From NCBI RefSeq assembly GCF_028330985.1, contig NZ_JAQMUE010000026.1:1-41343 (forward strand): DNA of 41,343 bases. The letters are read 5' to 3'. This document shows positions 25,728 to 41,197 of the stretch, piece by piece. The translations under genes were made by a program, and so were the position numbers. Origin of the DNA: Roseofilum reptotaenium CS-1145 (GTDB lineage: Bacteria; Cyanobacteriota; Cyanobacteriia; Cyanobacteriales; Desertifilaceae). Under the pieces are notes generated by a model. It ran no database searches. It was not told the DNA's origin and worked only from the letters and a program-made list of their open reading frames with translations. Position 1 is the stretch's first letter; each line of letters starts with the position of its first letter.

Positions 25728-27275
25728 TTAGGTCAGTCCAGCTCGACTGATTTCGAGCAAAATGAAACTGGCAAAAATAACGCCACCTAAACCCCCAACT
25801 AGAAAGCCGGAAGTGAATAAACTCCAATCTTTGTAGCCTTTGATGTTATCGGGTAGAACACCTCGTGGTTTTTGTCCGGGTTGAAAGATTGCCGATCCAT
25901 ATAAGAACAGACAAATACTAAGAATCAGAACTAAACCGCAGGCACTGCCAAATCCGGCTAAAAGAGCGGAATCTGTATCGCGCAGGGGCCCTAGTTTCAG
26001 AAATGGGCCCAGAAGCAAATAACCGTGGGCCATGCCAATTTCTAATCCTCGGGCAATGGGAGATAATCCTTTTCGATAAATAGGGAGATTTTTCACCCAA
26101 GTTAGACTAATCTCACTGGTGTTTAGGGGAGTAGCCAGATTACCTTGTTGGAAATCATTTTCGTAGGGTTGCACGATCCCTGAAAATAAGGGTTGGTTAA
26201 ATTGAGTATCCCCAAATAAGGCTTCTGGATTGAATTTCATGTTACTGAAGACAAACCCAGCCGCGATCGCCCGTGCCCTCAGGGCGTGCCAAAAATGACC
26301 AGCTAAGAGCAAACTGGCAAAAATGATATGAAACAACATTAACCAAGTCCGCACAGTGATGGTGCCATCGACCGTTAAGGTTTCAGCAGGGCCATAGAAT
26401 ACGGAAGGATAGACCGTCTCATTCACCCAAACCAAGTAGGCAGCGAAGTAACCCATGTAAGCTAGAGCCGCCTGAGAGTAAGACAAATAAGCCTCACCCG
26501 ACCAGACAAACAGCCCTTTAGCCCAAGCAGTAGGCTGGGTATAAATATGCCAAATTCCACCTAAAATACAGAGGATACCGATCCATACATGACCGCCCAC
26601 CACATCTTCTAGATTGTTGACTGCGGCCATACCTTGCAGTGTCCAGCCATCGGGGGTAATGCCTACCACATAGCCAAAAATGGTTAGGGGGTTGAGTGTG
26701 GGATCGGTGACCAAGCGAACATCGGCGATCGCCGGATCGTATAATCCTCCTACTACAGTTGCCTTCAGTACTAGCAACAGCGCCCCCATTCCCAGCAACA
26801 CCAAGTGAATGCCGAGAATGCTCGTCATTTTGCCCCCATTTTCCCAGTCATAGCCAAACCCTTTTACATCCAGGGTTTCCGGGCCAAGGACTGCATGATA
26901 GATCCCCCCAGCTCCCAGAATGGCAGAACTGATTAAATGAACCACACCAATGGAAAAATAGGGAACGGTATCAATAATTTGTCCTTCACCTCCCACTCCA
27001 ATCCCTAATGTTGCCAGATGAGGCAACAAGATCAGACCTTGGTTATAAATGGGCAAGTCAGGATTGAGGCGTGAGAGTTCAAACAACGTCATTGCCCCAG
27101 CCCAGAGGACAATCAATCCTGCATGGGCAATATGAGCGCCGAGCAACTTACCCGACAGATTGACAAAGCGGAAGTTACCCGCCGACCAGGAATAGGGATT
27201 AACAGAATCTTTAACGTAGTCGGTTTCCGGAGAACTTCCTGGAAACGCTACAGAAGTTAAGTTAGCGCTGGTCAT
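25728..27275 (-). CDS. CP43-like antenna fused to a PsaL domain (IsiA4-type)
   Basis: 515 residues. Residues 30-345 are a six-helix CP43-like chlorophyll protein ([68 protein letters not shown]) with the usual chlorophyll-binding histidines. Residues 365-510 are a PsaL (photosystem I subunit XI) domain: [40 protein letters not shown] and two more helices. Fusions like this are known, for example IsiA4 of Leptolyngbya JSC-1, which was found with monomeric PSI. It may replace the normal PsaL and attach an antenna ring to PSI. The start is one base after the upstream stop (TGA-C-ATG), so translation is coupled. Confidence 0.95.
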
Positions 27276-37959: not shown

Positions 37960-40551
37960 ATGTTTCTAGATGACTATCGTCAACATGCCCAAGAACGGGC
38001 TGCCCTCGGTATCCCTCCCCTTCCTTTGGATGCCGCTCAAGCCTCTGAACTGTGCGAACTGTTGAAAGATCCGCCAGAGGAACTCAAAGAAGAGTTACTG
38101 ATGTTACTGCGCGATCGCACTCCGCCTGGAGTCGATGAGGCAGCTTACGTAAAAGCGGGGTTCCTAACGGCTGTTGCGAAGGATGAGATCCAGTGTCCGT
38201 TGATTTCCCATCAGGGGGCGATCGACTTGCTGGGGACGATGGTGGGAGGATATAATGTGCGATCGCTCGTTGATATCCTCAAAAGCAATGATAACGGCAT
38301 GGCCAGTGAAGCAGCGGCTGCTCTGAGCAAAACCACCCTCGTCTTCGATGCCTTTAACGAAGTCCTAGAACTCTCGGAAGTCAACCCCTACGCCAAACAA
38401 GTCATCGACGCTTGGGCGAATGCCGTCTGGTTTATCCGTCGTCCCAAAGTAGCTGAAGCCATTACCGTCACCGTCTTCAAAGTTCCTGGCGAAACCAACA
38501 CCGATGACCTTTCCCCTGCACCCCACGCCACTACCCGCCCTGATATTCCTCTCCACGCTCTAGCCATGCTAGAGTCTCGGATGCCAGAAGGCTTGGAAAC
38601 CATTGCCAAACTGAAAGAAAACGGCCATCCTGTCGCCTATGTGGGCGATGTTGTGGGAACCGGTTCCTCCCGCAAGTCTGCCATTAACTCCGTTCTCTGG
38701 CACATTGGCGAAGATATTCCCTTCATTCCCAATAAGCGGGCAGGAGGATACATCCTCGGTAGTAAAATTGCTCCCATTTTCTTCAATACCGCCGAAGACT
38801 CTGGCGCACTGCCCATCGAATGCGATGTTAGCAACCTGAACACTGGGGATATCATCACCATCCATCCCTACAAAGGAGAAATTACCAACCAAGCGGGAGA
38901 AGTCATTTCCACATTTGCTCTGAAACCCGAAACTATCCTCGATGAAGTGCGCGCGGGTGGGCGTATTCCCCTGCTCATCGGACGCAGTTTAACCGATAAA
39001 ACCCGCGAAGCTTTGGGGTATGAAACCAGTCCTTTGTTTACCCGTCCCAGCGTACCGAGCGATACCGGGAAAGGCTTCACCCTAGCGCAGAAAATGGTCG
39101 GGAAAGCCTGCGGACTCCCAGGTGTGCGTCCGGGAACCTCCTGTGAACCGATCATGACGACGGTTGGTTCTCAGGATACCACGGGACCGATGACTAGGGA
39201 TGAGTTGAAAGAACTCGCCTGTTTGGGTTTCAACGCAGATTTAACCTTACAAACCTTCTGCCATACCGCCGCCTATCCGAAACCGGTAGACATCAAAACC
39301 CACAAGGACTTACCCGACTTCTTCTCGACTCGTGCCGGGGTTGCTCTGCGTCCGGGAGATGGCATCATCCACTCCTGGCTCAACCGGATGCTCTTACCGG
39401 ACACCGTAGGCACGGGGGGCGATTCCCACACCCGTTTCCCCCTGGGTATTTCCTTCCCCGCCGGTTCCGGGTTGGTCGCATTTGCGGCTGCTCTGGGCGT
39501 GATGCCGTTGGATATGCCAGAGTCGGTGTTAGTCAAGTTTACGGGAGAGTTGCAACCGGGGGTTACCCTGCGCGATATCGTCAACGCCATCCCCTGGGTA
39601 GCCATGCAACAGGGTAAGCTGACTGTCGCCAAAGAGAACAAAATCAATGTGTTCAATGGGCGCATTATGGAGATGGAAGGCTTACCGGACTTGAAGTTGG
39701 AGCAAGCGTTTGAGCTAACGGATGCCACGGCAGAGCGTTCTTGCGCTGGTTCTACGATTAAGTTAAGTGCGGAGACAGTGGCTGAGTATCTGCGATCGAA
39801 TATTGTATTGATGAAAAACATGATCGCTCGCGGCTATGAGGATGCCGTTACTCTCACTCGTCGCATTGCCAAAATGGAGCAATGGTTGGCAAACCCAGAG
39901 TTAATGTCAGCCGATGCAGATGCCGAGTATACCGATCGCATCGAGGTCAATTTAAGCGAGATAAAACAACCCATTGTTGCCGCTCCCAATGACCCGGATA
40001 ATGTCAAGTTAATGAGCGAATGTTCTGGCGATCGAATTGATGAAGTATTCATCGGTTCTTGTATGACCAATATCGGCCATTATCGGGCAGCCGCGAAGAT
40101 TTTGGAAGGCGCAGGAACGGTAAAAGGTCGCCTCTGGATCTGTCCCCCAACCCGCATGGATGAACAACAGTTACGGGATGAAGGAATGTACGGTATTTTT
40201 GCCGCTTCTGGCGCAAGAACGGAAATGCCGGGATGTTCTTTGTGCATGGGAAATCAAGCTCGCGTGGAAGATAATGCCACGGTTTTCTCGACTTCGACCC
40301 GTAATTTTAACAACCGCATGGGTAAAGGTGCGCGAGTCTATTTAGGCTCGGCAGAGTTAGCAGCCGTCTGCGCTCTTCTCGGTAAAATCCCCACGGTGGA
40401 TGAGTATTTAGATATTGTCGCCAAGAAGGTCGATCCATTCAAGGCTGAATTGTACCGTTACCTGAACTTCAATGAGATTGAGAACTTCGAGGATTTCGGT
40501 CGCGTCATTCCTGTGGAGCAGATGCCCAAGTTAGAGGAGGCTGTAGTGTAG
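37960..40551 (+). CDS. acnB: Aconitate hydratase B
   Basis: 863 residues, close to the 865 of E. coli AcnB. Residues 1-155 are the HEAT-like N-terminal domain, about 165-370 the swivel domain ([40 protein letters not shown]), and the rest the three catalytic domains. The [4Fe-4S] ligands are Cys701 ([10 protein letters not shown]) and Cys759 and Cys762 (GCSLCMGNQ). The enzyme converts citrate to isocitrate through cis-aconitate and in some bacteria doubles as an mRNA-binding iron and oxidative-stress sensor. AGGAGAG precedes the ATG. The last 37 codons recur, diverged, at 41050-41160. Confidence 0.97.
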
Positions 40552-40566
40552 TAGTATAATTATTGG

Positions 40567-40589
40567 GGTGGGTCTTTTATTGACTCACC
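40567..40589 (+). terminator. Hairpin after acnB
   Basis: GGTGGGTC and GACTCACC form an 8-bp stem (one G-T pair) with a 7-nt loop 15 bp after the acnB stop. A related hairpin follows the acnB 3' copy at 41174-41197, so the duplication includes it. Confidence 0.6.
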
Positions 40590-40608
40590 TCGATCGAGAT
40601 TATAATTT

Positions 40609-40797
40609 ATGGGAAAAAGTCATTTTAAAAAAGCAATATTATCTTTGGAGGCTCGGATTGCTGAACATCAAGAAAAAAGTAGATTAGAATTAAATAAGGA
40701 GTTTCCAGATCAAGGATTGATTAACCATTGGCAAAAGGAAATTAAAGCCTTTGAATAAGGTATTCAACAAGCATTAAAAAGGTTAGGGAAAAACTAA
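40609..40797 (+). pseudogene. Small gene with premature stop, first of a pair
   Basis: The frame opens at ATG 40609 (MGKSHFKKAILSLEARIAEH) and runs 49 codons to a TAA at 40756-40758. The same frame continues GIQQALKRLGKN to a second TAA at 40795-40797. One change (CAA to TAA) would explain the break. The natural end TAATG overlaps the start of the next gene, the usual sign of coupled translation. The product is a short basic helical protein, of the type seen in unnamed cyanobacterial small gene pairs. The 49-residue form might still be made. Function unknown. Confidence 0.5.
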
Positions 40798-41027
40798 TGC
40801 AATTAATTACTAAAAAAAATAGCACTCAAAAGTCCACTTTCAATCAATTGATTATAGAATTACAGGAAGAATGTCAAAATGTTCTTTCTTTGATTAATCA
40901 ATTACAACTTTCTGAGTTAAGCGATCGCCAAAAAGGTCAAATTTTATCAGAGTTATTAGTAGCGTCAATTCATTTACATTCTCACTGTGATGAGGATTGG
41001 CAAAATTTAATTTCTGATGAGTTATAA
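40797..41027 (+). CDS. Small helical protein, second of a pair
   Basis: 76 residues: FNQLIIELQEECQNVLSLIN, LSELSDRQKGQILSELLVAS and IHLHSHCDEDWQNLISDEL. Acidic, probably all-helical, two cysteines, no signal. Its ATG overlaps the stop of the preceding frame (TAATG). The pair lies between acnB and a second copy of the acnB 3' end and has a lower GC content than its surroundings. Such overlapping pairs often encode interacting proteins, for example toxin and antitoxin, but I see no known toxin motif. Confidence 0.6.
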   Translation: MQLITKKNSTQKSTFNQLIIELQEECQNVLSLINQLQLSELSDRQKGQILSELLVASIHLHSHCDEDWQNLISDEL

Positions 41028-41049
41028 TCTTTAACTGATGATGAGAATT

Positions 41050-41160
41050 AAAACTGAGTTATACCATTATCTCAATTTTGATGAGATTGACGGTTTCAAG
41101 GATTTCGGTCGCGTCATTCCTGTGGAGAAGATGCCCAAGTTGGAAGAGTCTGTGGTATAG
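41050..41160 (+). pseudogene. Diverged second copy of the acnB 3' end (37 codons)
   Basis: The frame reads KTELYHYLNFDEIDGFKDFG and RVIPVEKMPKLEESVV-stop, matching the acnB C-terminus (40441-40551) at 28 of 36 residues. Of the codon differences, 11 are synonymous and 8 change the residue, yet a 29-bp core (41099-41127 against 40490-40518) is identical. No acnB homology exists upstream of Lys1, and no start codon fits, so this is a fragment. It retains codon-level conservation that local decay would not give. Confidence 0.85.
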
Positions 41161-41173
41161 TATGATAATTAGG

Positions 41174-41197
41174 GTGAGTCCTAAGTTTAGGACTCAC
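41174..41197 (+). terminator. Hairpin after the acnB 3' copy
   Basis: GTGAGTCCTAA and TTAGGACTCAC form an 11-bp stem with a 2-nt centre. It corresponds in position and sequence to the hairpin after acnB (GGTGGGTC/GACTCACC). Confidence 0.65.

Follow-up and report, generated by a model that had tools for sequence, protein, structure and literature searches.

A small gene pair inserted between two copies of the acnB end in Roseofilum reptotaenium, and the acnB 3' end as a site of unrelated cargo in related genomes

Known systems and the duplicated acnB end

At icd, e14 and phage 21 replace the end of a gene of the tricarboxylic acid (TCA) cycle and the old end is kept. A comparable arrangement lies behind acnB in a 41,343-nucleotide stretch of the cyanobacterium Roseofilum reptotaenium CS-1145 (contig NZ_JAQMUE010000026.1, positions 1 to 41,343; the whole stretch is called the window here), in which the 3' end of acnB recurs a short way downstream, with two small genes, A and B, in between. 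Both cases share the replaced and retained end of a TCA-cycle gene, but at acnB there is no integrase in the proteins scanned and no fixed core, and the insert is only ~450 bp. The XisH-XisI pairs (PF08814, PF08869), which are linked to excision of the fdxN element, are likewise two-gene units and are found behind acnB next to a duplicated tail of this kind, but their proteins are unrelated to A and B. Some restriction-modification systems are described, in the part of a review that cites Nobusato 2000 and Furuta 2010 (PMC3874152), as inserting with target duplications that are long, on the scale of 100 bp, and vary in length; these complexes share with the present locus the lack of a known mobile element and the long, variable flanking duplications, and, as far as that description goes, they differ in that the inserts here are mostly tiny pairs (A-B, XisH-XisI), that the acnB end is hit repeatedly and that its tails seem to serve as homology for later transfer. 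As regards the cargo as a selfish gene complex, restriction-modification and Zorya genes stand at some sites and A-B matches no known family; a local origin of both copies is seen in one genome (G044, below), and the acnB copies of another (G005) are mosaic. Homology-facilitated illegitimate recombination, in the outline consulted (PMC3240628), would combine homology with a chance joint and so give a tail of random length; its application here is a proposal, and the recurrence at acnB and the exchange between tails exceed it. What the present case adds is the reuse of a single gene end by cargo of unrelated kinds, the A-B passenger itself, and indications that the tails take part in later exchange.

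The duplicated part of acnB comprises its last 36 codons and the stop codon. The copies at 40441-40551 and 41050-41160 are offset by 609 bp and are 81% identical (82% between the alignment ends, 40445-40562 and 41054-41171); 28 of the 36 residues are the same and, in register from 40441 and 41050, the codons differ by 11 synonymous and 8 non-synonymous changes, while a core of 29 bp (40490-40518 and 41099-41127) has no differences. This confirms the duplication, with its shared residues and identical core, that had been described in an earlier note on this DNA made from the sequence alone. BLAST trims the tail of the window genome (G000) to 107 nt, and a register of 111 nt was used instead. 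A 161-bp query matches two places only in the 5.67-Mb assembly, and because the second match has E = 3.4e-28 the duplication is not due to chance. The hairpin that the note saw recurring with the tail does stand behind each copy, but the two hairpins differ in sequence. The contig ends at 41343, which bounds the readable DNA 3' of copy 2.

The comparison within the genus took in six genomes (G000 to G005). Gene B and the second tail occur together in G000, G001 and G005, and neither is present in G002, G003 and G004, all single-tailed; relatives without the small genes yet with both tails, which the note had named as the case that would speak against an insertion, were not seen. The closest pair in the genus, G004 and G005 (acnB 95.5% identical), provides an empty and a filled site: the DNA behind tail 2 of G005 equals the DNA directly behind acnB in G004 (99.5% over 1,954 bp), and for this reason we interpret the second copy as the former acnB end, now displaced. 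The 60 nt behind copy 1 in G005 are 63% identical to G004 and resemble G000 and G001 instead. Farther downstream, G001, G002 and G003 are unlike G004 and G005, and the G000 contig stops. The duplication is the footprint of an insertion behind acnB, which supplied a new gene end and pushed the old one downstream, as the note had supposed when it called for an empty site.

The inserted unit is 94.6% identical over 448 bp to a stretch of G031, a genome of another family whose acnB is 75.4% identical to that of G000, and this comparison therefore indicates that the A-B unit moves horizontally between genomes. In G031 it sits behind an ispD-like gene (identified by eye); because the 448-bp unit is complete on its own there, a larger element, since deleted, as had also been considered, is not needed. 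The insert of G005 is 97.8% identical to that of G001 over 314 bp, the acnB of G005 being 89.1% identical to that of G001 and closer to that of G004. The small genes overlap as TAATG in relatives, in keeping with the pair of overlapping genes first described, but in the window gene A is stopped early by an in-frame TAA at its codon 50; it ends at 40758 and so does not overlap B. This position is read through in 26 of 26 related A proteins (alignment A3), which were chosen as open frames. Gene A is broken in G021 too; altogether there are four genomes (G000, G005, G021 and G044) in which B is intact and A is either damaged or could not be found.

The insert is flanked by a long direct duplication of its target, which measures 111 nt in the window, 79 bp in G044 and 74-1302 nt in further lineages, and single-copy relatives lacking the insert are clear in G004 and G066, are represented by G088 and G120 for XisH-XisI, and are looser in G007.

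Table. Features of the window, and cargo found at acnB ends in the genomes surveyed
Feature	Position or genome	Strand	Remarks
acnB	37960..40551	+	intact open reading frame (ORF), 863 aa; Pfam Aconitase_B_N, Aconitase_2_N, Aconitase; host gene, its 3' end being the target
acnB tail copy 1, serving as the working end of the gene	40441..40551	+	111-nt register used for G000, G001 and G005
Hairpin behind copy 1	40567..40589	+	similar hairpin behind copy 1 in G001 and G005 (alignment); unlike the copy 2 hairpin
Inserted unit, ~448 bp	40597..41044	+	matched in G031 (94.6%) without an adjoining acnB tail; gene B absent from G002, G003 and G004
Gene A	40609..40758	+	49 aa, shortened by in-frame TAA; in relatives ~62 aa, basic, predicted two-helix hairpin
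Gene B	40797..41027	+	76 aa; acidic product, predicted to fold as a two-helix hairpin
acnB tail copy 2, interpreted as the displaced former end	41050..41160	+	equivalent in G005 contains a stop codon
Hairpin behind copy 2	41174..41197	+	seen by eye in the sequence
Cargo: A-B	G000, G001, G005, G250		
Cargo: XisH-XisI	G093, G117, G048 (two pairs), G183, G064		Pfam for G093, likeness for the rest
Cargo: DDE transposase	G064		beside XisH-XisI
Cargo: Phd-like + DUF29	G142		Phd match below the Pfam cut-off
Cargo: C5 methylase + uncharacterised gene	G008, G009		
Cargo: C5 methylase, Bpu10I-like nuclease, AAA-like protein	G160		
Cargo: ZorA, ZorB, ZorC (Zorya-like set)	G078, L153:1489-5664		flanked by acnB and a second acnB piece of 1.3 kb
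Cargo: P-loop ATPase + LGFP-repeat protein	G051		
Cargo: small genes, one DUF6883	G126		

The acnB 3' end as a hotspot, and A-B units elsewhere

The survey covered the 291 genomes that carry the label of this order; 276 of them match the acnB end (nine only weakly, with a best E above 1e-10), and all genomes with two or more acnB-end matches at E <= 0.001 were inspected, both among the first 59 genomes and, for 36 more, in the remainder. Another acnB end, sharing the contig and lying no more than ~7 kb away, was found in 16 of the 276 (G000, G001, G005, G008, G009, G048, G051, G064, G078, G093, G117, G126, G142, G160, G183 and G250), whose labels comprise 12 genera and 8 families; this number is a lower bound, because weaker tails, such as that of G088 at 44% identity, are missed. 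The end of the control gene chlP matches in 273 genomes, five of them with a second match and one of these clearly separate: the second matches of G201, G258 and G283 are on other contigs, that of G236 overlaps its own first match, and that of G108 is a weak one of 33 aa lying 229 bp downstream. The acnB 3' end is, relative to this one control gene, a hotspot for small gene pairs and defence genes (16/276 vs 1/273, Fisher P = 0.00012, a value to be taken as a guide only because related genomes are not independent). No report of acnB as a hotspot of this kind was found in the literature, as judged by titles and the starts of abstracts.

No integrase domain, which the earlier note had suggested looking for beside the pair, was detected in the cargo proteins scanned, which represent some of the cargo ORFs, and a single DDE transposase was met, in G064. 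Two further B loci have a second acnB tail, in ESFC-1 (L084) and Pleurocapsa (L103), and L082 also has a tail; the small pair, or B, recurs at other acnB genes (e.g. G250, L084, L103), where the note had proposed to look for it. Three acnB ends each are present in G183 and G048; the short middle tail of G048 stands between its two XisH-XisI pairs, and the array of G183 runs acnB, XisH-XisI, tail, A-B, other genes, tail. A protein with a reverse-transcriptase domain is also encoded in the G183 array (L160:2916-4511). The second tail and A-B of G183 are collinear with the acnB and A-B of two genomes of its genus, G088 (88.0% identity across 640 bp) and G120 (83.7% across 613 bp), and the difference between them is therefore XisH-XisI plus one tail; behind its A-B, G088 carries another, weak tail, and in G135, again of this genus, XisH-XisI lies behind acnB and a second tail was not found. 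For the methylase island of G008, the sequence following the displaced acnB piece matches the sequence after acnB in G007 at 82% over 317 bp and then at 99.4% over 331 bp, a looser case in which G007 has ~535 bp more between its two matching blocks. No clean empty site was found for G093, G160, G078, G051, G048 and G021. Tails of acnB also occur away from acnB, directly before XisH-XisI-like pairs (L159, L164, L165 and L167; G142, G233, G192 and G230).

For the A-B units themselves, the best 80 of 105 named B loci were taken; gene A, broken copies counted, lies upstream of B in 61 of them, and acnB is inside the fetched stretch at 12. A direct repeat straddles the unit within 600 bp in 16/80 loci compared with 9/279 random placements (P = 3.7e-6; placements were drawn in the same loci with up to 400 tries, and those near a unit or in short loci were dropped, leaving 279). 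Four of these 16 units are at acnB (L072, L076, L084 and L103). At L074 (G044) the beginning of a WYL-type gene (named by eye) is repeated as a 79-bp copy that flanks the B unit, and in its relative G066 one 79-bp copy joins both flanks, which is a single-copy empty site; both G044 copies share bases against G066. The repeat at L104 and L127 (47-50 bp) is the end of an M50-like gene (by eye), and at L148 and L137 (in a Pseudanabaena and a Microcoleus genome) A-B stands before the same MTQEPDKK-type gene with a copy of its start upstream. A plasmid or phage vehicle was considered and rejected: gene B has no match in the plasmid or phage collections, and the acnB end matches 61 plasmid records (49 over at least 80% of the query), none of the ten genera most often represented among the matches listed being cyanobacterial.

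Proposed route of insertion and competing explanations

Non-synonymous differences between the tails are fewer than in a neutral simulation (P = 0.0004 to 0.0008 in G000, G001 and G005), which supports the earlier view that the pattern is not decay of a local duplicate and suggests that the copies diverged as working acnB ends. The G005 tails were scored at sites where G004 and G001 differ, with 16 informative sites in the left tail and 13 in the right. Copy 1 has seven consecutive G001-like sites, from 46 to 25 nt before the stop end, and is G004-like at 7; copy 2 has six, from 46 to 33 nt, and is G004-like at 16 and 4 nt before the stop end and in the downstream DNA. Such mosaic tails suit exchange inside the tails and point to entry by homologous recombination, which they demonstrate in part. 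The 29-bp identical core, previously taken as a possible attachment core, is probably better read as the result of recombination or gene conversion between the tails. The main second tail starts 74 to 1302 nt before the stop over 18 loci (by BLAST; G126 is cut by the contig), the long copies of 1.2-1.3 kb being those of G008, G009 and G078, and additional short tails, those of G048, G117, G008 and G009, begin 39 to 82 nt ahead of the stop.

We propose, with a probability of roughly 0.7, that the ~450-bp A-B unit was inserted at the acnB 3' end with a long target duplication and was then spread by homologous recombination through the duplicated end. Insertion of this two-gene unit would leave ~111 nt of acnB on each side, the upstream copy completing acnB, and apparently no site-specific recombinase would be involved. 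In the founding step the incoming DNA may have used homology within acnB for one of its two junctions, the other being a chance joint inside acnB. With its two tails the unit would then be homologous to the acnB genes of relatives regardless of their downstream sequence, and could enter new genomes by ordinary homologous recombination; other cargo (XisH-XisI, restriction-modification, Zorya and Phd-like genes) seems able to use the same route, which would create the hotspot. This suggests how genes without a transposase or integrase might find a reliable landing place, with a duplicated conserved gene end as the address. One site and one footprint link small gene pairs of unassigned family, restriction systems and Zorya, and displaced gene tails make such cargo easy to find; the filled and empty sisters offer a natural system for studying the origin of long target duplications, a question raised for restriction-modification genes.

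Several observations weigh against this proposal. The formation of the founding junction was not itself observed, and the G031 copy of the unit has no clear target duplication. No straddling repeat exists at 64 of the 80 A-B units, several of the 16 repeats found are weak, with lengths of 29 to 56 bp, the weak cases including L093 and L149, and that of L078 is an interspersed repeat. Among nine filled genomes compared with relatives, an empty site was obtained only for G183 and, loosely, for G008. The flanks of the second tail of G142 (L158:2297-2418) are joined directly, without a tail, in G129 and G189 of the same genus, and this tail is thus either an extra piece set in by itself or one that was lost twice. 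A tail start at 147 nt recurs in G048, G142 and G183, which might be a sign of a preferred site; the second tails of L084 and G160 end ~95 nt short of the gene end, BLAST ends of tails are not exact junctions, and the upstream copy of G126 is cut by the contig start, with another acnB on a second contig. The G005 tails are also patchy upstream, being G004-like at 76 and 72 (left) and at 70, 59 and 49 (right), and conversion between both tails would blur the mosaic as well.

The restored gene end, the old end left behind and the existence of empty sites would be explained by a site-specific element of the e14 or phage 21 kind, with its recombinase acting in trans or lost, and the 147-nt tail start shared by three genomes could be counted in its favour. 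However, A and B alone lie between the window copies, the cargo proteins scanned contain no integrase domain, the cargo is unrelated from case to case and B is also found at another gene with another target; because the main second tail starts differ between lineages, there is no fixed crossover core. This reading, favoured by the earlier note, is in our judgement very unlikely. An integron-like reading through the hairpin was rejected, because the copy-1 hairpin pattern occurs once in the whole assembly and is not reused there as expected of integron cassettes; the pattern is present in 30 of 152 loci, many of them overlapping or acnB-linked.

A partial duplication of a foreign acnB, or a local tandem duplication, to which the small genes came separately, would fit the mostly synonymous differences between the copies, the great length of some second copies and the G142 tail, which looks like a separate piece, but we give it long odds: within the genus copy 2 is present only where gene B is (both in 3/6 genomes, neither in 3/6), and G183 differs from G088 and G120 by pair and tail together. 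Direct repeats of ~110 bp are able to delete the DNA between them, and with the unit scattered over the genus it might be ancestral and have been lost from G002, G003 and G004 by recombination between the tails. Such a history appears highly improbable, as from 40 to 34 nt before the end G004 has bases that are shared with G002 or G000 and found in neither G005 tail, and the G005 insert is closer to G001 than the G005 acnB is. The proposal of insertion followed by homologous spread could also be extended, in that the acnB tail might be a working part of a minimal, recombinase-free cassette of gene end and gene pair, which stacks behind acnB, as in G183 and G048, and carries the tail elsewhere, as in G142 (also behind its acnB), G192, G230 and G233, possibly helped by its cargo (XisH or A-B stimulating recombination at the target). 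We consider this extension unlikely; the tails away from acnB may show a unit carrying its tail, but remains of a longer acnB fragment lie at those of G230 (by eye) and G192.

The A and B proteins

Both proteins are predicted two-helix hairpins, with a mean predicted local distance difference test score (pLDDT) of 92.8 for A (from G001) and 81.9 for B. A is basic in 26/26 aligned sequences and B acidic in 30/30 (isoelectric points 9.3-10.5 and 4.1-5.3), these sequences being a chosen part of all available; C26, H59, H63 and C64 of B are kept in 30/30 and could form a metal site. Neither protein has a significant family match in Pfam, PADLOC, PHROGs, NCBIfam or the PDB sequences, and a Foldseek search of B against PDB folds gave 0 matches at E <= 0.001; helical hairpins were listed as non-significant, and some of them are presumably encapsulated-ferritin-like. 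Relatives have the layout of a type II toxin-antitoxin system, with two small overlapping genes for a basic and an acidic product, and A-B lacks similarity to a known family of this type. We infer that A and B probably form a complex and are perhaps a toxin-antitoxin-like pair, with A as the costly member, which would suit its damage or absence beside intact B in the four genomes named above.

Elsewhere in the window, a minus-strand ORF at 25728-27275 encodes a fusion of an N-terminal CP43-type antenna protein with a C-terminal photosystem I subunit XI.

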